Below, in pieces: positions 31,333 through 43,170 of a DNA stretch of 64,000 nt. Position numbers and translations under genes: made by a program. Below the pieces are notes generated by a model. The model made no database searches, was not told where the DNA came from, and saw only the letters and a program-made list of their open reading frames with translations. Location: assembly GCF_900636515.1 (NCBI RefSeq), contig NZ_LR134287.1, positions 186,001 through 250,000 on the forward strand, given 5' to 3'. Every line of letters starts with the position of its first letter. The stretch's first letter is position 1. Source of the stretch: Neisseria animalis. GTDB lineage: Bacteria > Pseudomonadota > Gammaproteobacteria > Burkholderiales > Neisseriaceae.

Positions 31333-33969
31333 TTATGCAACAGTATCCAGCAACTGCTCCCGAACGTCACGCCCTTGTTCATCTTGTTTGACCGCCATGA
31401 TAAACAGGCATTGGCCACCGCTTAATTTCGCCCATCGCTCGGCGATTAAGCATTTTTCCTTGCTGTCGTCATTGGTTTTGTAGGGTTCGCCCTTGTATTC
31501 CACCACCAAAATCCGTCCGTCTGTCAATTCGGCGATAAAGTCGGGGTAGAAATTGTCTTTGGCCAGCGGCAGTCCAAAACCGCGTTTCACAGGATTGCGC
31601 ACCCAATGTTTCACTTGTGGCAGGCTGTCAATGACTTTGGCGCAATCGAGTTCTTCGCCGCTGCTTTTTAAATCTTCAATTTGGGCAAAATAGCTTTTGT
31701 TGAAACGATAGTTACCTGAATAAAACGGCGGTTGGGGCGCGTAATGCTTCAAATCAAAACAAAATTGATGTTGCGCATCCAAGCAGGCTTGTACATCATT
31801 GCCGCCAAACAAACTTTGCTGATAGCAATCTGCCACTGCTTTTTGCCGATAGCCTTGAATCAACGCCTGAATATCCCGTGCCAAGGCAAATTTTTGTTGC
31901 AACAAATCGGCAAGCGACACATTGGGCTTGGCAAGCAAATCATCTGTCAAACGCTGTAAAAACGCCAACATGACCGCTTGCGGTATATCAGATACGCGGA
32001 CGTGATTATCCAGCCAACGGATAAAATCGTTTTGGCTCAAATCCAGCCAATCATCGGTCAAATGTAATTGCTGTCCGTAAAAACGCTGCGTGAGTTTGTC
32101 GCCGTCAATATCTACGGCGAAACTGTCGCTGCCTGTTTGCACGCGGAATTTTTCCAGTCGGGCAGGATAATCCAAAAGATGCCAGCCGCGATAATCCAGT
32201 AAAATATCAGGGTCTGCCAACATCAACTCGCCCTGAATATTTACGCATAATTGCGGAATGGCGGCAAAGATTCTGCCTTGTTCGGCAGGGGAAGCGCTTT
32301 TGGCGATTTTGGCTTGATGAATGGCAATTTGTTGTTTTAACAGCGTTTGTTTTTTACCTGTTGCTGTTTTTAAAATTGCGGATTGCAAATTATCTGAAAG
32401 ATTGCCCGATACTTGCACCAAAAATCTGCCGTCTTGTTCGGTGGCAATCAGTTGGGATTGTTCGTCTGATGTTAGGTTTTCAGGCAGCCTGTCCAATTCC
32501 AACACGGTAGGCACATATGCCGTCTGAAAAACCGGCAATTCATGTTCATCAAACAAATTATCTTGCCCTGTCTGCCCCATGCGCAGCATATCCGCCACTT
32601 CCAGCGTTTCAAAGCCCATGCCGATGAGTTTGTCTTGCAGATTCTTCGCCGTTTCGCCAAAACTTTTGGACGACAAATGCGCATAAGCGCGGTTTAAATC
32701 TTCCATTTTTCGGCGTTTGGCATACGGCATACGCAACACACGCCCCAAAAGCTGCTCGGCTTCTTTGCTAGACGACACGTTTTGCACCGAACAAAATACA
32801 TAGGCAAACGGACAATCCCAACCTTCTTTTAAGGCCTCCACCGTGATGATGTAGAGAATCGGGCAGTTTTTGTCATACAAATCCACCTTATCCAGCTCGC
32901 GTTGCGACCCTGTAACCACGGCGATTTCACGCTCGTCAATTTTCAATTCTTCCAGCAGATACCGCTTTAACACCTCAACCGTTACCGCGCCGTTTTTGGC
33001 CTCTGCCTGAAACAGTACAATCGGACGTACATAATCGCTTTCGTGTTGGGCTTTTTGTGCCAACTCGCTGCGCCGCAAATACGCCCCGTCCACCGCCTGT
33101 TGCCAAGTTTCGTGTTCGGTTAAGATAATCGGCAGTTTGATCATCTCTTCTTTTTTGAGCACATTTGCGCCAACGTGATACAGCACATTACTGCCGCAAC
33201 GCGCATCAACATTGGGCGTGGCGGTAAATTCCAAAATCGCAGACGGCAACAAATTGGCAAGCACATCAAACGTCAATGGCGTGCGGGCATTATGCGCTTC
33301 ATCTACAATCACAAAAGGGCGGTAGGCTTTGAGCAGATTGGCAAACGAATGTTTGGTTTTGCCAAGCTGTTTTGCCTGCAAACCGTGTTCTTGCAAATCG
33401 GTTGGTTTGACTGTCTCCAAAGTCGCCAAAACATCAGACGGCAAACGTGCAAAATGCGGGGCTAAATGCTCGTTAAACGCATAAATTTTGCGGCCGTCTT
33501 CTTTTTCCACACGGAAATTTTGCAAAGTAGACACCACGATAACCGCCTTATTGCCAAAATCCTGCGGGCGCAACAGGGTAAATTCTTCGGTTTCAATCAC
33601 CATCACTTGACGGTTAAACACCTTATCCAACGCCATGCGGTAAGGGTGTTTGGGGTTTTTCAAGGCTTCGGCAGTTTGGCTTTTAATCGTTTTGCCCGGC
33701 ACCAGCCACAACGCCACAGGAAAATCACAACTCAAATACGCCTTTGCCACCCGCTCGATACTGTGCGAAGCAAGGAGTGTTTTACCGCCGCCTGTGGGAA
33801 TGCGCACGCACACATAAGGAATATCGCGCAAGGCTTCGTGTTCGCTCGGCACTTTATAGGCAAAAGGCTGTTCATCGGCAAACGCCGCCGCCACATCTTT
33901 TTTCAGGCAGCCTGAAAAATAACGGCCGACACTTTCCAGAGCATCTTGTTGGTATGTTTTTAACTGCAT
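31333..33969 (-). CDS. Type III-like restriction subunit (SF2 helicase with PD-(D/E)xK nuclease)
   Basis: 878 residues. The helicase part has Walker A RIPTGGGKTLLA near residue 58, the DEAH-type box VDEAHNARTP, SAILEFTATPN and the motif VI segment EQLLGRVLRMPYAKRR. The C-terminus has FYPDFIAELTDGRILVVEYKG, a PD...ExK nuclease core. It starts 10 bp after the methyltransferase gene with GGGGAAAATC upstream. It is complete, so if mod1 is OFF the subunit would be made without its partner, unless it depends on it. DUS of several dialects lie inside it. Confidence 0.87.
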   Translation of the reverse strand: MQLKTYQQDALESVGRYFSGCLKKDVAAAFADEQPFAYKVPSEHEALRDIPYVCVRIPTGGGKTLLASHSIERVAKAYLSCDFPVALWLVPGKTIKSQTAEALKNPKHPYRMALDKVFNRQVMVIETEEFTLLRPQDFGNKAVIVVSTLQNFRVEKEDGRKIYAFNEHLAPHFARLPSDVLATLETVKPTDLQEHGLQAKQLGKTKHSFANLLKAYRPFVIVDEAHNARTPLTFDVLANLLPSAILEFTATPNVDARCGSNVLYHVGANVLKKEEMIKLPIILTEHETWQQAVDGAYLRRSELAQKAQHESDYVRPIVLFQAEAKNGAVTVEVLKRYLLEELKIDEREIAVVTGSQRELDKVDLYDKNCPILYIITVEALKEGWDCPFAYVFCSVQNVSSSKEAEQLLGRVLRMPYAKRRKMEDLNRAYAHLSSKSFGETAKNLQDKLIGMGFETLEVADMLRMGQTGQDNLFDEHELPVFQTAYVPTVLELDRLPENLTSDEQSQLIATEQDGRFLVQVSGNLSDNLQSAILKTATGKKQTLLKQQIAIHQAKIAKSASPAEQGRIFAAIPQLCVNIQGELMLADPDILLDYRGWHLLDYPARLEKFRVQTGSDSFAVDIDGDKLTQRFYGQQLHLTDDWLDLSQNDFIRWLDNHVRVSDIPQAVMLAFLQRLTDDLLAKPNVSLADLLQQKFALARDIQALIQGYRQKAVADCYQQSLFGGNDVQACLDAQHQFCFDLKHYAPQPPFYSGNYRFNKSYFAQIEDLKSSGEELDCAKVIDSLPQVKHWVRNPVKRGFGLPLAKDNFYPDFIAELTDGRILVVEYKGEPYKTNDDSKEKCLIAERWAKLSGGQCLFIMAVKQDEQGRDVREQLLDTVA
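33902..33916. other. Foreign-dialect DUS in res1
   Basis: TTCAGGCAGCCTGAA contains AGGCAGCCTGAA, the Kingella-type DUS, and on the other strand the AGGCTGCCT part of the simiae-type dialect. A second TTCAGGCAGCCT is at 32479-32490. The dialect names are from memory of the DUS literature. Confidence 0.5.
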
Positions 33970-33979
33970 GATTTTCCCC

Positions 33980-35580
33980 TTATTTATCCATCACATCATA
34001 AGGAATTCTTTTAAAAACAATATTATGGTTTGCCAAATATTTCTCAATCGAAGTCGCTTCGCCGTAAACGACAATATCCAAACCCTGTGCTAAAAACTCC
34101 TTAATCTGTGGCAACTCCCATAAAATTTTGCGGGTCAAAACATTGCCGCCGTCAGGACGTTTGTCGCCCAAAATACCGTTATACAACAGATAATAAGCCG
34201 TGTCGTTCATCACGCCGAGCAGGGGCGATTTTGCAGACGGCCTTGCAAACGGCACACGATGGGTTAAATACCAAATATGCGCCGCCAACGCATCAAACCC
34301 GATAGACGGATGGATCGCGCCGTATTCGTCAAATACTACTTCACCCAACTCGCAAAACCGAAACGCGCCGCCGCCTTGCCAGTTGGCACTGCCCGAAACG
34401 CCGCCCTGTTCGCCGTCAATCACTTTTTTTAAGCGCGGCACAACATGGGTTTTGGCGTGTTCGCCGATTTCAATGCCGATATAACGGCGGTTCATTTTGT
34501 GGGCAACGGCGGCGGTTGTGCCGCTGCCCAAAAAGCTGTCCAGGATTAAATCGCCCTCGTTGGTGGCGATTTGTAAAATGCGTTGGATTAGGCGTTCGGG
34601 TTTGGGGGTAGCAAAGATTTCTTGATTGTTAAATTCACGAACTTCTTTTTTGGCTTCTGTATTTCCGCCGACTTCATCTTGTAATAAGACGGTTAAAGGA
34701 ACAATTCCTTGTTTAACTTGGTGCAAGAAACGTTTAACCATTGGAACGCCATCGCCATTTTTTCCAAAAACAATTAAATTGTCTTTGAGCATTTCAAAAT
34801 ATTTTTCTTCTCGCACCAACCAACATCTGCCTTTTGGTGGCATGACAATTTTTCCTGTTGGTGTTGTAATTGGATAGATATTGTCGCTAACACCAGTTTT
34901 GGCAAATTGAGCACCACGTTGTCCGCCAGTTAAACTAATCGTGAAATTATCAGGCGTGTATAAACCTCGTGGGTCATCGGTGCGATTGTATTTGGCATTC
35001 TGTTTTTCTGTTCGTTCCAATGGATTGGCTGTCCATTTTTCCTTATTTTTTGCGTAACAAAGAATGTGGTCATGGTTATCAGAAAGCCAAGTTGCGTGTC
35101 CCTGTGGTGCAGTTTTCTTTTGCCAAATTAAATTTGCCACAAAGTTTTTCCGCCCAAAAATCTCATCGCACATCACTTTGCAATAATGGCTTTCGTTGTC
35201 GTCCAGCGTAATCCAAATACTGCCGTCTTCCGCCAGCAAATCACGCAAAAGTTCCAAACGCGGATACATCATATTCAGCCACAGGCTGTGTTCCAAATTG
35301 TCGTCGTAATGGGAAAATGCACTGCCCGTGTTGTAGGGCGGGTCGATAAAAATACATTTGACACTGCCGGCATAAAACGGCAGCAAAGATTTCAGCGCGG
35401 CCAAATTGTCGCCCTGAATAATCAGATTATCGGTAAGTGCTTGATTTACCGAAATTTGCGGGGGGGGGGGGTAAGTGTTTGAATACCATAAGAAAACGCC
35501 TGATTTTCGCGCAGCAGGCGGTAAGGCGTTTTGCTTGCGGCTTTAACGGCATCTTCTTTGCCGTGCCAAGTGAGTTGCAT
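33980..35580 (-). CDS. Type III-like adenine methyltransferase, phase-variable, reads OFF
   Basis: If joined, about 533 residues. ATG at 35580 opens MQLTWHGKEDAVKAASKTPY; after residue 39 comes a tract of 12 C on the coding strand, and the frame then stops after four more codons (CGC AAA TTT CGG TAA). With 13 or 10 C it would continue into QISVNQALTDNLIIQGDN and the catalytic part. There, CIFIDPPYNTGSAF (motif IV) precedes LDSFLGSGTTAAVAHKMNRRYIGIE (motif I), a beta-class N6-adenine order. The gene is coupled to res1. A TTG at 35404 could start a truncated product lacking about 60 residues. Confidence 0.85.
35460..35471. repeat. 12-G homopolymer tract in mod1
   Basis: Twelve consecutive G on the plus strand, C on the mod1 coding strand, about 110 bases after the start codon. 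Homopolymers of this length slip during replication and switch reading frame. Present length puts the methyltransferase out of frame. Confidence 0.92.
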
Positions 35581-35628: not shown

Positions 35629-35636
35629 AAATTTGC
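35629..35636 (+). other. Left target-site duplication
   Basis: AAATTTGC immediately outside the left inverted repeat, identical to 43163-43170. Eight bases is the duplication size known for IS1595-family elements. Confidence 0.85.
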
Positions 35637-35671
35637 CGGTATTATGTAGCAGTTGCACAAAGATTTAACTA
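35637..35671 (+). repeat. Left terminal inverted repeat of the transposon
   Basis: Starts CGGTATTATGTAGCAG and ends AAGATTTAACTA. It differs from the complement of the right end only at positions 6 (T/G) and 29 (T/C). Confidence 0.88.
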
Positions 35672-35723
35672 AGTGTTTTTGCTACATTTTTCTTATCTCA
35701 TTGTAATTTAAAGGTAAGAAAAA

Positions 35724-36137
35724 ATGAATGCGTTAGAAAAGTTATTGATTGAAGAAATTTCCCTTGCAGAACAAGAAAGGGCTGAATTTGAAGCTAAGAT
35801 AAAGGGGTTAAATCAGAAAATTTTAGACTATCGAACTGCGCTAAATCACGCAAGAGATTCAGATTTTTTATTAAGCAAGAAATCTCGCAATGTACGCTTT
35901 CAGTCGTCTCCATGCCAATTAGTGGCGCATATCCTTAAAAAGCAACCTGAAAAATGGTTTCATACAAATGAAATTACCCTTCAAGCATTGAAATTAGATA
36001 ACCAGCCTATTGATAATGGTGTGCCACGCTTACACTTGCAAACAATGCATAGCACACTAAACCATCTTGTTAAACATTCATTGGTTGAGAAAAAGGTAGA
36101 AGGGAAAACGTGTTATTGGCGTTTGAAGGCAATGTAG
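35724..36137 (+). CDS. Passenger protein A: coiled coil plus predicted winged helix
   Basis: 137 residues, not recognised. Residues 1-45 (MNALEKLLIEEISLAEQERA, then EFEAKIKGLNQKILDYR) form a strongly charged heptad-type coiled coil. The C-terminal half (FHTNEITLQALKLDNQPID, then LHLQTMHSTLNHLVKHSLVEKK followed by CYWRL) looks like a small winged helix. It is the only plus-strand gene of the element, with AAAGGTAAG as ribosome-binding site, and ends back-to-back with gene B. It may regulate or assist transposition; function unknown. Confidence 0.7.
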   Translation: MNALEKLLIEEISLAEQERAEFEAKIKGLNQKILDYRTALNHARDSDFLLSKKSRNVRFQSSPCQLVAHILKKQPEKWFHTNEITLQALKLDNQPIDNGVPRLHLQTMHSTLNHLVKHSLVEKKVEGKTCYWRLKAM

Positions 36138-36572
36138 TTATATTTTCAATCTCCACCGCACATCATTTGCTTTTAATGCTACTCGTTCTACTACGCCTTT
36201 ATTAAGCCAATGCTTCAATGCACCACGCACTGAAACAGTATGTTGCGGTTGAATGATGGGGTCTTGTTTATCTCGAATAAGGACAAGTTCCGTTAATTCA
36301 TTAACAGTAAAGTAATGATTTGGTTTTACTTTCATTTCAGCAAGCACCATTTGGCGTAGTTTTCCCTTGAAACGATGCTGATAAGTGCGGTAGGTATAAA
36401 GCTCCGTATTGTATTCATCAGTTAGGGCTTCTTCTTGCATAACCTCAATGGCTGCTTGTAGTTTATCAAGCTTACTCTCCACCAAAGCAAGATGTTCTAG
36501 CACTTGCTTACGTTCACGTTGCAAGCGGTCAATTTTTGCTTGAATTTGACTTAAATAGATTTTCTTTGCCAT
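36138..36572 (-). CDS. Passenger protein B: coiled coil plus predicted winged helix
   Basis: 144 residues, not recognised. Residues 1-50 (KIYLSQIQAKIDRLQRERKQ, then VLEHLALVESKLDKLQAAIEVM) are a coiled coil and the C-terminal half (YFTVNELTELVLIRDKQDP, then SVRGALKHWLNKGVVERV followed by VRWRL) a winged-helix-like domain, the same architecture as protein A. Its ATG overlaps the transposase stop (TAATG), so it is translated with the transposase, which points to a role in the element itself. Confidence 0.72.
   Translation of the reverse strand: MAKKIYLSQIQAKIDRLQRERKQVLEHLALVESKLDKLQAAIEVMQEEALTDEYNTELYTYRTYQHRFKGKLRQMVLAEMKVKPNHYFTVNELTELVLIRDKQDPIIQPQHTVSVRGALKHWLNKGVVERVALKANDVRWRLKI
36383..36391 (+). 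other. Pasteurellaceae uptake signal core inside the transposon
   Basis: Exact AAGTGCGGT within passenger gene B. One copy in 7.5 kb is weak alone but agrees with the two copies in the 23-26 kb block. Confidence 0.5.
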
Positions 36573-37606
36573 TACATTACCAGTCTTTCTACTTGCCTAT
36601 GGTTGCCTTGCCAGTAGCCTTTCCAAGCATTATCTGATGATGTGCTGAGGCATTTACTGGTCACATCATTGAAAATGGTTAAATTATCCAGTTTGCGAGT
36701 ATCTTCACGATAGGCTATTTCGTTTGCGTAGTTATCAAGGTAGATATTACTCATTTTATGAACTTGTCCGTAATACATACGTTTGAAACGTGCAAAGTAA
36801 CTTTCGGCAAGGTTATTGGTAATCCCTTCATCACTACGATATTCTTTTTGATGGTTCACACGTTGTAAGTCGTAATCCACTATCAATTCATCATAAGCAC
36901 TGTTTTCATCGGTATGAATACGGCTGTTTGGCTCAATATATGCAGTAGCCAATTTCTTCACGGATTCCGTGTTTTCTGACAAAATAGGAAACGTGATGGT
37001 TCTCTTTGCACCGACTAGTTGCGGATTAGACAAAGTGTCCTGTTCAGTGTAACGTTCACGCATAACCAGTACGCCACGTTTATTGGGATTGGCATTTTCT
37101 TTTAAGCGTCTATCTACTCGGTCTGCTTTCTTATTCTTTGGACGTGGAGCGGAATGCACGTAAGTACCATCAATATGGATTTCGCCTGATAATGGGAAAA
37201 GTTCACGTTGTACAATCAGGCTTTCTCGGATTTTATGTGATAAGGTAAAAGCGGTTTTGTACTGCACGTTTAAATCTCGAGAGAGCTGACAGGCTGAAAT
37301 TCCCTTAACTGCATTGACAAATAAGGCAATAGCGAATAAATAGGTTTGAATTGGCAACTTATGGTTTGCAAAAATTGTCCCTGACGTAATGCTAAACGTG
37401 TGTCTGCAATGTTTGCATCGCCACTGCTTGCGAGTAGAGATAAAGTAGGCTTGATGTTGCACACCGCATTTTGGACACACGACGTTCTTTTCACTTCCCC
37501 AGCGGATACCGCAAAGCATCGAAAACGCTTCGCCATCAGATAGACGAGCTATCTGGATGGGTGAAAGCGTTCGAGCTTTGCTGGTTAAAAGGAAGTGTTG
37601 AGCCAT
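36572..37606 (-). CDS. IS1595-family (ISXO2-like) transposase
   Basis: 344 residues. An N-terminal zinc ribbon (CPKCG at about residue 45 and CKHC at about residue 77) precedes a DDE-type core: EIHIDGTYVHSAPRPKNKK (first Asp), IHTDENSAYDELI (second Asp) and NNLAESYFARFKRMYYGQVHKM (third acidic region). This is the IS1595 pattern. It appears full length. It is coupled to passenger gene B. The transposase and the 8-bp duplication agree with each other as to family. Confidence 0.92.
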   Translation of the reverse strand: MAQHFLLTSKARTLSPIQIARLSDGEAFSMLCGIRWGSEKNVVCPKCGVQHQAYFISTRKQWRCKHCRHTFSITSGTIFANHKLPIQTYLFAIALFVNAVKGISACQLSRDLNVQYKTAFTLSHKIRESLIVQRELFPLSGEIHIDGTYVHSAPRPKNKKADRVDRRLKENANPNKRGVLVMRERYTEQDTLSNPQLVGAKRTITFPILSENTESVKKLATAYIEPNSRIHTDENSAYDELIVDYDLQRVNHQKEYRSDEGITNNLAESYFARFKRMYYGQVHKMSNIYLDNYANEIAYREDTRKLDNLTIFNDVTSKCLSTSSDNAWKGYWQGNHRQVERLVM

Positions 37607-37653
37607 TGCAATTATCTAAGTTATATTAAAAGGCTTTACTTGCTGAAAAATTG

Positions 37654-37677
37654 CGGGTTTATGTAGCAGTTGCATAA
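37654..37677 (+). repeat. Degenerate internal copy of the transposon end
   Basis: CGGGTTTATGTAGCAGTTGC then ATAAA, in the same orientation as the left end (direct, not inverted), just upstream of the transposase gene. It pairs with the right end at 43162 to bracket the res2/mod2 cargo alone. A shared TTAACTAAGTGTTT occurs near the left end (35665) and at 37786. Confidence 0.7.
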
Positions 37678-37703
37678 AACCTAAATCTAATCTTAACCGA
37701 ATA

Positions 37704-37745
37704 AAAATACCTTTACCCATTTATACAGGTAAAGGTATTTTACTT
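37704..37745. terminator. Terminator between res2 and the transposase
   Basis: Perfect 14-bp arms AAAATACCTTTACC and GGTAAAGGTATTTT with a 10-base loop. On the minus strand it lies downstream of res2. The rest of 37746-37935 is AT-rich without a gene. Confidence 0.8.
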
Positions 37746-37935
37746 TATTTTTATTTCAAACACTAAAGTGAATTAAGATCAAATATTAACTAAGTGTTTC
37801 TAATTCATCTTTAGTTAAAGGGGCTACACTTCGTCTTTATCTTATATTTAAAGCAATACGTACCCCCACACCTATCGAAGTAGATAAGATATTTACGGAT
37901 AAATAATAACTAAGATAGAATCTTACTATTAGTTT

Positions 37936-40563
37936 CTATCTAATCTCAGATAATTTTTCTATAACCTGATATTTTACGCCATCAAAAATATTTAAGGAAA
38001 AATGTTTTTTAGCACATTGAATTTTTTGACGTTCACTTAAACTGAGAGAACTTTCATCAATTCCTGATTGAATGCCTTTGCCTGTATTTTTGGTTTCCGC
38101 TACAAAATAAACTTTTGAACGGTTATTCATTACCACAGCCCAGTCAGGGTTGTAATTACCAATTGGGGTAGGAATTTTAAACCAGTTAGGCAATTTGAAA
38201 TACATTCGCACATCCTCATTGTTTTCGCATTCTTGGGCAAACTGTTTTTCAGTGTATGAATCTAGTGAAATATAATTAGCGAAAATAGTTTTGTGTTGTT
38301 TTTCTTTATCACTTTGATTGACTTCAAAGGTGTGTTCATTGAAAAAGATTTCCAAGCCGTTTTTTTCCAATTCTTTCCATTGAATTAAAGTCTGTTCATA
38401 GCCATTTTTTTGTGGATCAACTTGTGAATACTCAATACCATCAATCATTAAGCCATTTAAGGCTTGTAAAATTTTTTCACTCACCATATCAATAAAGCGT
38501 TGCGGATTATTAGCAAGCTCGTGCAAGCGGTCGGATTTTTGCAAAATTTCACAAATAGTTTGGCGAGTTAATTGGGTTTTACGCTGAATAGCTTGCAATA
38601 CATCAGGGATTTCCCAATGAGTATCAATTTCTGCATAGCGAGAATTGGTTTCTTCACCCCAAATACCTTGTTCAGATTGACGTAATTTTGCCTTTTGCAC
38701 ATTCAGTTGAACCCGTTGAATAGTGGGCATTTCTCTCATCAATTTTATCGCACTTTCAATCAGTTTTTCTCGTTCAAATCGCACGGAATAACGTGTTTTT
38801 TGTTGTAATTTTTGCCAAATTTCAATAAATGTGGAATCAAGGGTAAAGCCTTTTCGATAACGTTGTTGCAAGCGAGTTTCTCTTGATTTTACGCCACCAT
38901 TGGTAAATTTAATTCCGCATTCATCTTCATATTCTTTTTGAAGATTTGCCGCAAAACTTTGGTAGCTTTCATTAGGAATCACTGTGAGGATATTTACACT
39001 TTCATCATAAATGCGTTCGCCTTGTTGGTTTACCGCCAAACGCAAGCCACGCCCAATTTCTTGGCGTTTTTTAATTGGCGAACGGGTTTCATTTAGTGTA
39101 CAAATTTGAAATACATTTGGGTTATCCCAGCCTTCTTTTAAAGCGGAGTGAGAAAAAATAAAACGCAACGGCGAATCAAAAGAAAGTAGTTTTTCTTTAT
39201 CTCGCATAATTAAATTATAAGTATCTTCGTCTGCTTTTGTGCAACCCGTAGTATCTTTCTCCTTACCTTTATCTTGGGAAAAATAGCCATCGTGTACCCC
39301 GTTTGCACTCATTCCTGTTTCACGCTCATAGATTTCATTAAACCAGCGGTAAAATTTGCCGTTATCACGGTAATTCGCCACCTTATCAATAAAAAACAGA
39401 GAAAGCACTTTAATGCCTTTGCTATTCAGACGTTTTTCTTTGGCTAAATGCTCTTTAATGGTACATTCCATTTGCTTTTTCATAATTTCATCACGCAATA
39501 AGTCATCATCTTCACTTTGTGTGAGAATTTGCCCGTTAGATAAGCGAATCTCAAACGGATCGGCACTTAACTCATTGATAATAAAACCGTGTCGATAACT
39601 CTCGTTTTTACCTGATTTTTCATAGAGATCATCACCAGCTTGTATGGTAACTGGTTTTTTCTTGGTTTCTTTATCAGTTTGAATGTGAATTTCAATTTTA
39701 GCTTTGAGTTTTCCTTTACCAACAATAGGTTCTTTTAGCACGATATAAGCACCGTTCACATCGTTTTCTGCTAGCACGGGTTCTACTTCGATTTGTTTTA
39801 CCAATTTTTGGTTATAAGCTTCAAGTGGATTAAGACTATAAATTTTGTGATATGGATTTTTATGCGTAGCGGAATAACGTAATACAAATAAAGGATTAAG
39901 TGCTTCAATTGCTTGCTTACTCAATTCCGTTTCCATATTTTGTGGTTCATCAATAATGACAATCGGCTGAGTTTGACTAATTTGCAAAATTGGTGCTTCA
40001 CCACTTTCGTTGATACGGTTAATCACATTATCATCTTTTTTAAAGCTATCAATGTTCATAATCAAGATTTCAATATGGTTATTGGTAGCAAAACCGCGTA
40101 AAGCATTTAGCCTGTCGCTACGGTACACAGTGGTATTGATGGTCGGTTTATCAAATAAATTGTCAAAATGTTCTGCGGTGGCTCGTACAGTTTGTTGCAC
40201 CCCTTCACGAATGGCGACACTTGGCACCACGATCACAAATTTTTGCCAACCGTATTGTTTATTTAGCTCAAAAATGGTGCGTAAATAGACATAAGTTTTG
40301 CCCGTGCCCGTTTCCATTTCAACAGAAAAATGCAAGCCGTGATCGGAAAGTACGGTTAATTTTTGATGGAATTTTTCCTGCACCGCATTTAAATTTTTCT
40401 CAATTTCTTCAAAGGGTAAAGCCAACTGATTTGCCATAATCGGCTGATTGCCCACGGTATTAAGAGCAAATGCAGTGGTTTTGTTTAATTCACCTTTAAA
40501 TAAGGTAACCACCGCTTCAATGGCTTGTTGTTGGTGGACGAGTTCTTCGAATTTTAATTGCAT
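37936..40563 (-). CDS. Type III restriction endonuclease subunit Res (second system)
   Basis: 875 residues. The helicase domain begins near residue 80 with Walker A VEMETGTGKTYVYLRTIF, then VVPSVAIREGVQQT, the motif II region IVIIDEPQNMET, SATHKNPYHKIY and KKRQEIGRGLRLAVNQQGER. The C-terminus has GNYNPDWAVVMNNRSKVYFVAETKN, the PD...ExK nuclease site of type III Res. It lies 8 bp after mod2 and cleaves only in complex with Mod. Full length and apparently intact. Confidence 0.93.
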   Translation of the reverse strand: MQLKFEELVHQQQAIEAVVTLFKGELNKTTAFALNTVGNQPIMANQLALPFEEIEKNLNAVQEKFHQKLTVLSDHGLHFSVEMETGTGKTYVYLRTIFELNKQYGWQKFVIVVPSVAIREGVQQTVRATAEHFDNLFDKPTINTTVYRSDRLNALRGFATNNHIEILIMNIDSFKKDDNVINRINESGEAPILQISQTQPIVIIDEPQNMETELSKQAIEALNPLFVLRYSATHKNPYHKIYSLNPLEAYNQKLVKQIEVEPVLAENDVNGAYIVLKEPIVGKGKLKAKIEIHIQTDKETKKKPVTIQAGDDLYEKSGKNESYRHGFIINELSADPFEIRLSNGQILTQSEDDDLLRDEIMKKQMECTIKEHLAKEKRLNSKGIKVLSLFFIDKVANYRDNGKFYRWFNEIYERETGMSANGVHDGYFSQDKGKEKDTTGCTKADEDTYNLIMRDKEKLLSFDSPLRFIFSHSALKEGWDNPNVFQICTLNETRSPIKKRQEIGRGLRLAVNQQGERIYDESVNILTVIPNESYQSFAANLQKEYEDECGIKFTNGGVKSRETRLQQRYRKGFTLDSTFIEIWQKLQQKTRYSVRFEREKLIESAIKLMREMPTIQRVQLNVQKAKLRQSEQGIWGEETNSRYAEIDTHWEIPDVLQAIQRKTQLTRQTICEILQKSDRLHELANNPQRFIDMVSEKILQALNGLMIDGIEYSQVDPQKNGYEQTLIQWKELEKNGLEIFFNEHTFEVNQSDKEKQHKTIFANYISLDSYTEKQFAQECENNEDVRMYFKLPNWFKIPTPIGNYNPDWAVVMNNRSKVYFVAETKNTGKGIQSGIDESSLSLSERQKIQCAKKHFSLNIFDGVKYQVIEKLSEIR

Positions 40564-40571
40564 AATGCCCC

Positions 40572-42596
40572 CTAAAATGTTTCAAAGGCAATGCCAGCGT
40601 CTTTTAATTGCAAGGCGAGATTAGCTTTTAAAGCATCGTTGCCGTTAAATACTTTATCTAAGGCAAACACTTTTTGTGGTTGTGCATCGATAATGTGATT
40701 AAGCATTTCATTGTGATACTGCGTTAATAAAAGAGCGGTCTTTCTTTTACCTGTTTTATCATTGAGCCAAACGAGATAATCCGCAAATTCAAAGGAATCT
40801 GTTAATTGGAAGCCTAAACGCAAAGCAAGCTCATACGCCATATTTTCCACCGTGGCTGTGGGTTCAACAATATCTTGGAAAATATCTAATTGTGCTTTGA
40901 TATTTTTTACTTCATTATTTTTTGGAGTTTGCCATTGTTTAAAATTACTTTCGCTTAACTTAAACACTTTAAAGCCTATATCCAGCGAGTGATTTTCGGG
41001 AAGATTTTGCAAAATTTGCGCCCCAGCACGGCGGATACGCTCTTTTGAGATTTCTGCGATATTTTCAGATACCCCCAATGATTGACAAAATTCGTAAGCC
41101 ATTTTTTGTTTTTTATCTTTTGGATTTAATTCTTCAGGTAATTGAATACAAATGTATTGGCGTTGTTTTTCTTTAATTTTTAAATTTAACTCCATAATAG
41201 CATGAGCAAATGAGCCACTTCCACAGAAAAAATCACAAATTAAATCGCCTTCATTTGAACCAATACGAATTAAATTTTTAAGCAATTCTAATGGTTTAGG
41301 ATTTTGAAATATTTTTTTATTAAATAATTTTTTGATAACCTCTGTACCATTTCCGCTACTGTAAGCTGGTTTATAAAACAAAGACTTAGCTTTTTTTCCA
41401 CTAGCTATATCATCTTCTAAACGTTGCTTTTTATAGAATGAAATTTTCCCATTTTTTGAATGTTTGATAATAAATTCATTCAACGATTTGCTTAATGTAT
41501 CTTTTGAACGTCTCCAGGACATTTCCTTGCCATCTTTTGTTATTGGGTAGACAATAAAATCATCATTAGCCAATTTTTCGACAGACATTCTTGAATAATC
41601 TCTACTTACAAAAATAGGATAATAACCATTAGGACGTTGTTCTCTTGCTCCATCTTCGCCTGTTCGCATTAAAGTTGCACCTTGATAAAATTTTCCTTTT
41701 TCGTCTTCTTGATCATAATCTGCAAAATCTTCTTCAGTCAAAGGGATACCATTTAAATCGTCAACAGAACTTTTATTTTTCATATACACGATCGTATATT
41801 CATGAGTTCCAGCAAACCCAAATTCATCATTATTTCCTTTTAAATTCATAATGGTTGGTAAAGATGCAACAAAATTTTCCGCCCCAAACACTTCATCACA
41901 CAACAATTTCAACTGTGCCTGTTCATTATCATCAATACTAATAAAAATCACACCGTCATCACGCAAAAGCGTTTTGGCTAAATGCAAACGAGGCAACATC
42001 ATTGAAAGCCAGTTGCTGTGATAATGCCCGTTATCCTTGCTGTTTTTGCGGAATGCCCCTTGAAATATACCATCACGTTTAATGTAGCCCTCAGCATCTT
42101 TATCGCCTACACGTTTAGCATATTCCTCTCTTGTTTCAGAAAATTTATCAGGGTAAATAAAGCTGTCATTGCCAGTGTTATAAGGTGGATCAATGTAGAT
42201 CATTTTCACTGTGCCTGCGTAAGCCTTTTGCAGAATTTTTAAGGCTTCCATATTTTCAGCTTCAATAAATAGATTTTGCGTAGTGTCAAAATTTACACTT
42301 TCTTCTTTACAAGGGGAAAGCGTGTTAAAAGAAGGGGATTGTAGAGTACGGTAGGCACTGGATTTTCCCGCCCAGTTTAGACAGTAATGCTCATTATGAT
42401 CGGCAAGGTTTTCCTCACCTAACACGAGTTTGAGTTTTTCCCAATCAATTTTATTTTCACAAAAAATTTCAGGAAAAAGCTGTTTGAGTTTTTCAAGATT
42501 ATTTTGTTGAGAAGGGTTGATATTATCCGTTAAACTGCTGTGCTGTGCTGTGCTGTGCTGTGCTGTGCTGTGCTGTGCTGTGCTGTGCTGTGCCAT
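40572..42596 (-). CDS. Type III adenine methyltransferase Mod, phase-variable, reads ON
   Basis: 674 residues. ATG at 42596 follows TTGAGGAAACAAAAA. The GCACA tract encodes MAQHST-AQHST repeats, then the frame runs open through the whole gene. Motif IV is KMIYIDPPYNTGNDSFIY and motif I ICDFFCGSGSFAHAIME, the beta-class order. The central segment between them carries the recognition domain. Gain or loss of one repeat would shift the frame. From memory, GCACA-repeat mod genes are known from Actinobacillus pleuropneumoniae; the allele cannot be assigned here. Confidence 0.93.
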   Translation of the reverse strand: MAQHSTAQHSTAQHSTAQHSSLTDNINPSQQNNLEKLKQLFPEIFCENKIDWEKLKLVLGEENLADHNEHYCLNWAGKSSAYRTLQSPSFNTLSPCKEESVNFDTTQNLFIEAENMEALKILQKAYAGTVKMIYIDPPYNTGNDSFIYPDKFSETREEYAKRVGDKDAEGYIKRDGIFQGAFRKNSKDNGHYHSNWLSMMLPRLHLAKTLLRDDGVIFISIDDNEQAQLKLLCDEVFGAENFVASLPTIMNLKGNNDEFGFAGTHEYTIVYMKNKSSVDDLNGIPLTEEDFADYDQEDEKGKFYQGATLMRTGEDGAREQRPNGYYPIFVSRDYSRMSVEKLANDDFIVYPITKDGKEMSWRRSKDTLSKSLNEFIIKHSKNGKISFYKKQRLEDDIASGKKAKSLFYKPAYSSGNGTEVIKKLFNKKIFQNPKPLELLKNLIRIGSNEGDLICDFFCGSGSFAHAIMELNLKIKEKQRQYICIQLPEELNPKDKKQKMAYEFCQSLGVSENIAEISKERIRRAGAQILQNLPENHSLDIGFKVFKLSESNFKQWQTPKNNEVKNIKAQLDIFQDIVEPTATVENMAYELALRLGFQLTDSFEFADYLVWLNDKTGKRKTALLLTQYHNEMLNHIIDAQPQKVFALDKVFNGNDALKANLALQLKDAGIAFETF
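42539..42593 (-). repeat. GCACA pentanucleotide tract (about 11 copies) in mod2
   Basis: Eleven tandem GCACA units on the coding strand begin directly after the ATG and encode AQHST repeats. With five-base units, a one-copy change always breaks the frame, so this is a three-state ON/OFF/OFF switch. Present count is in frame. Confidence 0.93.
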
Positions 42597-43127
42597 TTTT
42601 TGTTTCCTCAAAATAGTTTGTCAAGTATTATTTCAATTCTGTGTTAATCGCTTTAAACGATACTTCTACCGCTTTCTGTAATTCATTCGGCATTGCTCGA
42701 TAATGATTATGCCCTAAATGCAGTATAGCACATTAAGTCTATTTTATTGCTAGTCGTAAACAATGGCGTTGCAAGCATTGCAATCACACTTTTCGATTAA
42801 ATCAGGCATAATTTTGCTAATCATAAGTTATCTTTAAAAATTTATCTGTATATTTTAATTCGCTTTGTGAATGTGGCTAGAGTGCTTTTTCATTATTTCT
42901 AATCGGTTCGTAAGTATTCAGAAAATAGCTATCGTTGTTTGGTTCAAGAATAAATAGGATCTTTAAGGATTTGAATTTTCTTTAGTGAATTTTCTCGACT
43001 TTTAGCAAGTTTTACGTTGCATTGAAGTGTATTGATTTTGCGATTGATGAGGGAATAATAGTGCGGATTTGTCATAATAAAAATCTCCATCAATATAATT
43101 ATGTAATGGAGATTTTAATGATAATGA
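42597..43127. other. Non-coding right arm of the transposon
   Basis: About 530 bp upstream of mod2, AT-rich. I see no convincing gene. It must hold the mod2 promoter; none is clear enough to place. A hairpin near the right end (43080-43116, arms AAATCTCCAT and ATGGAGATTT) could insulate the element from outside transcription. Confidence 0.55.
43080..43116. terminator. Hairpin near the right end of the transposon
   Basis: Arms AAAATCTCCAT and ATGGAGATTTT enclose about 15 AT-rich bases and end in T/A runs on both sides. Confidence 0.65.
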
Positions 43128-43162
43128 TAGTTAGATCTTTGTGCAACTGCTACATACTACCG
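43128..43162 (-). repeat. Right terminal inverted repeat of the transposon
   Basis: Complement of the left end: TAGTTAGATCTTTGTGCAAC at the inner side, outer end CTACATACTACCG. Confidence 0.88.
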
Positions 43163-43170
43163 AAATTTGC
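43163..43170 (+). other. Right target-site duplication
   Basis: AAATTTGC, identical to 35629-35636, directly abutting the right inverted repeat. Confidence 0.85.

Follow-up and report, generated by a model that had tools for sequence, protein, structure and literature searches.

A probable nested composite of IS1595-type transposons with a type III restriction-modification system in Neisseria animalis, and a related family carrying exchangeable restriction-modification cassettes

IS1595-family elements with passenger genes are already known. The accessible part of PMC5704250 describes two mobilizable ones, MTnSag1 from Streptococcus agalactiae and tISCpe8 from Clostridium perfringens, and a title cited there indicates that the latter carries lincomycin resistance. 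ISHps3 and ISHps4 are insertion sequences (IS) of the same family present in genomes of Haemophilus parasuis rich in restriction-modification (RM) genes (PMC6211672, in part). RM units bounded by a short target duplication and imperfect inverted repeats, with no transposase, have also been reported (Furuta 2010, according to the available text of PMC3874152), and PaeR7I (with IS1/IS5), PluTI and a transposon-like RM system of R. leguminosarum have been presented as mobile RM systems associated with IS (available text of PMC3031569). Here we describe a 7.5-kb element found at positions 35637-43162 of a 64,000-nucleotide window, which corresponds to bases 186001-250000 of the 2.24-Mb, one-contig genome of Neisseria animalis (G000). 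The element holds an IS1595-type transposase and a type III RM system, and it is very probably a composite, made by nesting within one family of IS1595-type transposons that carry RM genes.

This family resembles tISCpe8 and MTnSag1, as they appear in the accessible part of PMC5704250, in having an IS1595-family DDE transposase, 25-bp inverted repeats, 8-bp direct repeats and genes between the ends, but it differs from them in its RM cassettes, its often two transposases, a helix-turn-helix (HTH) gene, and the small genes S1 and S2. ISHps3 and ISHps4, which are Pasteurellaceae sequences and are compared here by description only, may correspond to members of this family or to portions of them, although the available portion of PMC6211672 treats IS and RM genes separately and draws no link between them. 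The units of PMC3874152 share with our case the RM genes within inverted repeats, the short duplication, and the lack of a transposase; in the text available they move unlinked to any known element, whereas the stretch 37654-43162 of the window and the element L181 have the ends of a family that possesses a transposase. Such a family could move transposase-less RM units in trans. PaeR7I, PluTI, and the R. leguminosarum system are, in the accessible text of PMC3031569, separate cases with other IS, without a common chassis holding exchangeable RM cargo. The accessible parts of PMC5704250, PMC3874152, PMC3031569, PMC6211672, PMC3339403, and PMC12707154 do not describe an IS1595 family carrying RM cassettes, and we found no literature account of IS1595 elements with exchangeable, often phase-variable RM cassettes, an earlier description being possible. 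The RM-cassette family is large and little-noticed; passengers on IS1595 elements as such are not new.

The borders of the element can be read directly. Its outer left end (35637-35671, forward strand), on the side adjoining S1 and called B, and its outer right end (43128-43162, reverse strand) are identical at 33/35 positions (94%), and a perfect 8-bp target duplication, AAATTTGC, lies just outside them, at 35629-35636 and 43163-43170. The initial annotation of the window had proposed these 35-bp inverted repeats and this duplication, along with an IS1595-family transposase, two small genes of unknown nature, and a complete type III res/mod pair. All of these were borne out, the transposase by Pfam, the res/mod pair by Pfam and the type III models of PADLOC, and the small genes by the lack of any match in Pfam, NCBIfam, or PADLOC. 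It had further proposed that the whole 7.5 kb moved as one unit. This holds for the last move, as indicated by the perfect duplication around the outermost ends, but not for an origin as a single transposon with an RM passenger.

The evidence for a composite comes from inside the element. The same end occurs a third time at 37654-37678 (forward strand), oriented like the left one, so that the stretch 37654-43162 is bounded by inverted ends of its own. This nested RM unit is 99.26% identical over 5512 columns to a region (L041:1358-6833) of Bergeriella (Neisseria) denitrificans NBRC 102155 (G034), a member of the same genus group as the window genome, where it stands alone at another locus, with no transposase module. 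The module itself (35637-37653) is 99.80% identical to positions 101-2117 of locus L194 of Caviibacterium pharyngocola (2013/2017 bases, 4 mismatches, gapless), and the match ends one base short of the inner end; beyond this point, the Caviibacterium element continues with its own HTH gene, followed by a gene with a weak methylase match. The module is thus one side of a Pasteurellaceae transposon, and since the match stops where it does, the RM unit sits inside a transposon of this type. Of the present outer ends, one is consequently that of the resident transposon and the other is the RM unit's far end. In addition, between mod and the right end there are remnants of the C-terminus of an HTH regulator (42637-42705, reverse strand) and of the N-terminal region of an IS1595 transposase (42674-42881, forward strand), both placed and oriented as in the relatives described below. 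The internal end and these remnants (about 42637-42881) had been overlooked in the initial annotation.

If the element were a plain IS1595 transposon that had carried its RM passenger as one unit throughout, the outer ends and the duplication would look as observed here, but this explanation is very unlikely, because it does not provide for an internal end or for remnants of a second transposase inside the element, nor for the separate existence of the RM unit in B. denitrificans, where the module is missing, and of the module in Caviibacterium, where this RM system is missing. A check suggested together with that annotation, the search for related strains with the RM genes but without these ends, also went against it: the RM genes of B. 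denitrificans come with neither the transposase module nor the outer left end, and their borders are the internal end and the right end. The portability between species that it had envisaged is upheld for the parts, which are mobile, with the module found at 99.8% identity in a Pasteurellaceae species and the RM unit at 99.3% in B. denitrificans. The two Neisseriaceae genomes share 90% identity in aspS and differ by 29% over a 234-bp segment of a GTPase gene, and the contrast between this divergence (10% and 29%) and the 99.26% identity of the RM unit suggests a recent transfer of the latter. In a plasmid collection, the sole match was a 96-bp segment of mod, which occurs in two records of N. 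gonorrhoeae. A composite transposon with two full IS copies was also considered and rejected, as there is one intact transposase, at the left, and a remnant alone at the right.

According to the mechanism that we propose, a transposase-less RM unit would have jumped, with a transposase acting in trans, into a transposon already resident, landing 47 bp upstream of the transposase gene of the latter; this nested insertion predicts an intermediate consisting of the resident element with the RM unit between two copies of AAAAATTG. In a subsequent end switching, the transposase would have used the far end of the RM unit as partner for the outer end of the resident, and everything between those two ends would have moved to the present site, leaving behind the resident's own cargo. 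Through nesting and end switching, the RM unit would have regained a transposase and the transposon would have swapped its cargo. The two ends of 47 relatives agree at 19-31/35 positions versus 33/35 here, a value which fits two copies of the same element side.

An origin of the composite by homologous or illegitimate recombination between two elements, with movement afterwards, appears unlikely, although it deserves somewhat more credit than the simple transposon. The second 8-bp copy expected from a nested insertion is absent beside the RM unit, where the outer target follows instead, and the RM unit of B. denitrificans also lacks a duplication (flanks GACGGGAA and GGAAAACG, 1/8), both in line with recombination. 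Natural transformation is common in Neisseria. Nevertheless, the join at 37653/37654 is base-exact and falls on the first base of the inner end, as predicted by transposition and not by recombination. We retain nested transposition, with several points weighing against it. Due to the missing duplication, transposition of the RM unit in B. denitrificans is unproved; in a search of 46 genus genomes for the empty site of this unit, no other genome shows both flanks in register, and both flanks of the 7.5-kb element were found in G000 alone among the 46. Moreover, the inner end was assigned to the A side by gene order, and its bases 26-45 do not decide the side (mean of 8.0 versus 7.2 of 20); the same bases of the right end are equally indecisive (8.1 versus 8.7 of 20).

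The transposase module encodes three proteins. The IS1595-family transposase (36572-37606, reverse strand; 344 amino acids) matches PF12762 (DDE_Tnp_IS1595, 2.1e-46), PF12760 (5.9e-17), and NF033547 (137 bits, with a cut-off of 75). S1 is the small terminal gene (35724-36137, forward strand), and S2 (36138-36572, reverse strand) is its distant relative (24%). The S1 protein is 98-99% identical to an Avibacterium protein and 100% identical to one from Caviibacterium, and S2 is 100% identical to proteins from both genera. S1 is modelled as a long helix plus a winged helix (predicted local distance difference test score 87, predicted template modelling score 0.56), and winged-helix DNA-binding domains were among the best hits of a fold search, in which the best E value was 1.7e-3 and none fell below 1e-3. 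A DNA-binding role, in aid of transposition or of its control, is probable for S1 and S2.

In the RM unit, Res (37936-40563, reverse strand; 875 amino acids) matches ResIII (PF04851), RE_endonuc (PF19778), and the PADLOC model REase_III (4.9e-287). Mod (40572-42596, reverse strand) matches N6_N4_Mtase (PF01555, 1.6e-35) and MTase_III of PADLOC (4.3e-176), holds a DPPY motif, and comprises 674 amino acids from its ATG, or 679 from an upstream TTG at 42611. A GCACA tract of 11 units (42536-42593, reverse strand; 11.6 copies) comes right after the ATG at 42596 and leaves the gene in frame, and the same mod in B. denitrificans has 5 units and encodes, also in frame, a protein of 664 amino acids. 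The system is probably an ordinary type III defence in which Mod would be switched by slippage. In Neisseria and Haemophilus, type III mod genes that begin with a short repeat tract are known to be phase-variable (phasevarions, in which switching alters the expression of many genes). The mod described here is similar to them in type and in the location of the tract, but it differs in that the probably switchable gene resides on a transposon.

Genome contigs were scanned with four transposases from these genomes, and 75 loci were kept from 146 confirmed stretches. Ends were found on both sides of the transposase at 47 of the 75, while the remaining 28 have one end, none in the available DNA, or no facing pair. 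Two elements of one genome (L139 and L140) are copies, and L131 is counted among the 47 with a left end (7 mismatches) that is probably spurious. Among the 45 elements that could be tested, 35 show 8/8 duplications, in comparison with none of 1978 control pairs that combined left and right flanks of different elements (25 reached at least 7/8), so the ends and duplications are not due to chance. The relatives share a 25-bp end core, which was detected with up to 2 mismatches in 89/140 species and 31/43 genera of Pasteurellaceae, against 0/140 for the control pattern read backward, another reason to discard chance. Within the genus, a scan with a 19-bp core and up to 3 mismatches yielded 38 places in 24/46 genomes; since the backward control yielded 32 places, only matches with up to 1 mismatch were used, and these appeared in 5/46 genomes (G000, G034, G039, G027, and G033). 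A scan of the class found the end in 6/369 genomes, G000 included. Some Pasteurellaceae genomes hold about 80 ends (43 forward and 40 reverse in G583), and pairs separated by 140-163 bp, resembling miniature inverted-repeat transposable elements, were noticed at G512:C1:2954-3116, G508:C2:141512-141651, and G484:C1:1870543-1870684.

Pasteurellaceae loci are typically arranged as follows: end, in many cases S42, transposase 2, cargo, HTH, transposase 1, S2, S1, and end. The second transposase has about 40-50% identity to the first. In 43 of the 47 elements, a gene of 100-210 codons lies on the minus strand, at most 90 bp from the S1-side end; at least 25 of these genes, the two window proteins, and that of element L040 align as one family, with 11-99% identity to S1.

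RM genes, called by Pfam on representatives and by BLASTP clusters, were found in 29 of the 47 elements. Nine carry an N6_Mtase (type I/IIB-like), with a Methylase_S-type partner in 8/9, and eight carry a type III Mod, with Res recognized in six. The rest encode a C5 methylase (four elements, with LlaJI or HindVP enzymes beside it in two), an EcoRI methylase (two elements), a D12 methylase (two elements, with AlwI or FokI enzymes), or Eco57I/MmeI-like proteins (four elements, one with XamI). Transposons could simply pick up whatever lies in accessory regions, which are rich in RM genes, with no special link between both. The presence of YadA adhesin, glycosyltransferase, RnlA toxin, AbiEii, or RiPP-enzyme (ribosomally synthesized and post-translationally modified peptide) genes in some elements agrees with this explanation, as does the fact that the control with flanks covers all flanking genes, accessory or not. 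We consider it improbable, however, not only for the 29/47 count but also for the comparison with the flanks. The 104 cargo open reading frames (ORFs) of at least 250 amino acids (133 of at least 170) include 13 N6_Mtase, 9 N6_N4_Mtase, 8 Eco57I, 7 ResIII, 6 Methylase_S, and 5 C5 proteins, whereas none of these families is among the 25 listed, out of 213, for 98 flank ORFs of at least 250 amino acids (obtained by random sampling of 354 with 170 or more); as the smallest family listed has 2 members, each RM family has at most 2 in the flanks.

A second sample was obtained by ends alone, and it agrees with the one picked by transposase. It consists of 20 regions among the matches listed, of which 6 repeat elements already counted and 14 are new. 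RM genes are present in 9 of the 14, four of them (L179, L182, L186, and L189) called by BLASTP alone and L194 being weak (MmeI_Mtase below the cut-off). Duplications of 8/8 were found in eight of the new elements and of 7/8 in two, with none for L179, L180, and L197, and L195 left out. Other cargoes were also observed. A 3.3-kb element with no transposase match is present in three genomes (L183, L185, and L196), with 97-98% identity between copies and 8/8 duplications; one of its genes, tested in L183, belongs to the RiPP-modifying MbnB/TglH/ChrH family, so the transposon family also moves a locus similar to those for peptide biosynthesis. In L085 and L095, genes for a YadA-type adhesin and for glycosyltransferases take the place of RM genes. 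Finally, L078 3814-5520 (G027) is a 1.7-kb element without a transposase match, with a 7/8 duplication and a single ORF that is 95% like a cargo gene of the Haemophilus element L117 and has a weak ClpP-like protease match.

Near-identical chassis carry unrelated cassettes. In 36 pairs of elements the transposase genes are at least 85% identical, and 29 of these pairs share no cargo cluster (28/35 informative pairs, after dropping one with no cargo ORF of 170 amino acids). For instance, the left sides of L103 and L106 are 93.6% identical (2380 bp) and their right sides 95.4% (2104 bp), yet one encloses a C5/LlaJI system and the other a type III system. In L116 and L119, the cargo differs between stretches that are 96.7% (1900 bp) and 92.4% (1987 bp) identical. 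A second cargo slot exists between S2 and S1, occupied by RnlA in L116.

Repeat tracts (at least 4 units of 4-8 bases) are also associated with the RM cargo. They appear in 16/29 elements with RM genes versus 0/18 of the others (Fisher p 6.7e-5), and their density is 16 in 343 kb of elements versus 1 in 518 kb of flanks. Fourteen of the 16 are located inside a methylase-type ORF or at most 200 bp upstream of it. L181, with a 7/8 duplication, an HTH match, and a transposase present as remnants only, holds a run of 41 CGCAA units next to a C5 methylase that is accompanied by an NgoFVII-like enzyme. In a sister type III mod shared by the window genome and B. denitrificans, there are 4 units (in frame) in the former and 8 (out of frame) in the latter.

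The picture of an RM-carrying family has its own counterevidence. Recognized RM genes are missing from 18/47 elements, whose cargo comprises adhesin, glycosyltransferase, AAA ATPase, AbiEii, KilA-N, RhuM, BRO, and unknown genes (12 of these 18 lie outside the Pasteurellaceae-type group); L115 and L136 have a Mod with no recognized Res; 13/29 RM elements have no tract; and 10/45 testable relatives lack an 8/8 duplication. Besides, the sample represents one genome per species, and the first set was picked by transposase.

Additional elements exist in these genomes. A second complete one in G000 (L040 7740-11577, about 977.7 kb), with the duplication GGTTTTGG on both sides (8/8), encodes an EcoRV-like endonuclease, a methylase clustering with the D12 ones, a transposase, and an S gene. 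A third (L039 9012-16513, about 909 kb) holds another type III system, that of the sister mod with 4 versus 8 units, and its second end was not found; the same stretch, cut at the other side, is present in B. denitrificans (L042), with 99.6% identity over 5759 bp. In G033, facing ends 21.3 kb apart (L076 1673 to L077 3115) enclose type III and type I RM genes. They may delimit one large element or two partial ones, and the 7/8 agreement of the flanks (TAATTTAC and TAATTGAC) is not decisive, because at least 7/8 was also reached by 25/1978 control pairs.

In the window, a resident second type III res/mod pair (31333-35580, reverse strand) directly adjoins the transposon. Its mod has a 12-G tract (35460-35471) close to where the gene presumably starts. 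Judging by coordinates, with translation beginning at the ATG at 35580, the gene would be out of frame at the tract length sequenced. The transposon may alter the promoter of this gene, since the target duplication starts 49 bp upstream of ATG 35580. A further copy of AAATTTGC occurs at 35452-35459, next to the G tract, and was taken as chance; TACCG stands before it, just as it does at the element's right end. An Rfam search gave no match.

The spread of RM systems is a long-standing question, and some RM units seem mobile without a known element (available text of PMC3874152). For one such unit, the end sequence, the transposase, and a base-exact junction are now at hand. As a broader hypothesis, which we advance tentatively and regard as somewhat less than an even bet, an IS1595-type family of Pasteurellaceae, spilling into Neisseriaceae, may be a dedicated vehicle for phase-variable RM systems, in which cassettes are swapped by nesting and end switching, as preserved in the present element, transposase-less RM units are the non-autonomous members, and the tract eases entry into new hosts by allowing methylase or nuclease to start in either state. 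At least some RM systems thought to be self-moving would then be passengers of this family. If true, the 25-bp end could be used to find mobile RM cassettes and to predict which of them can jump, and the presence of unrelated specificities on the same chassis would be explained. With transposition linked in this way to phase-variable methylation, epigenetic switches could pass between species in one piece.

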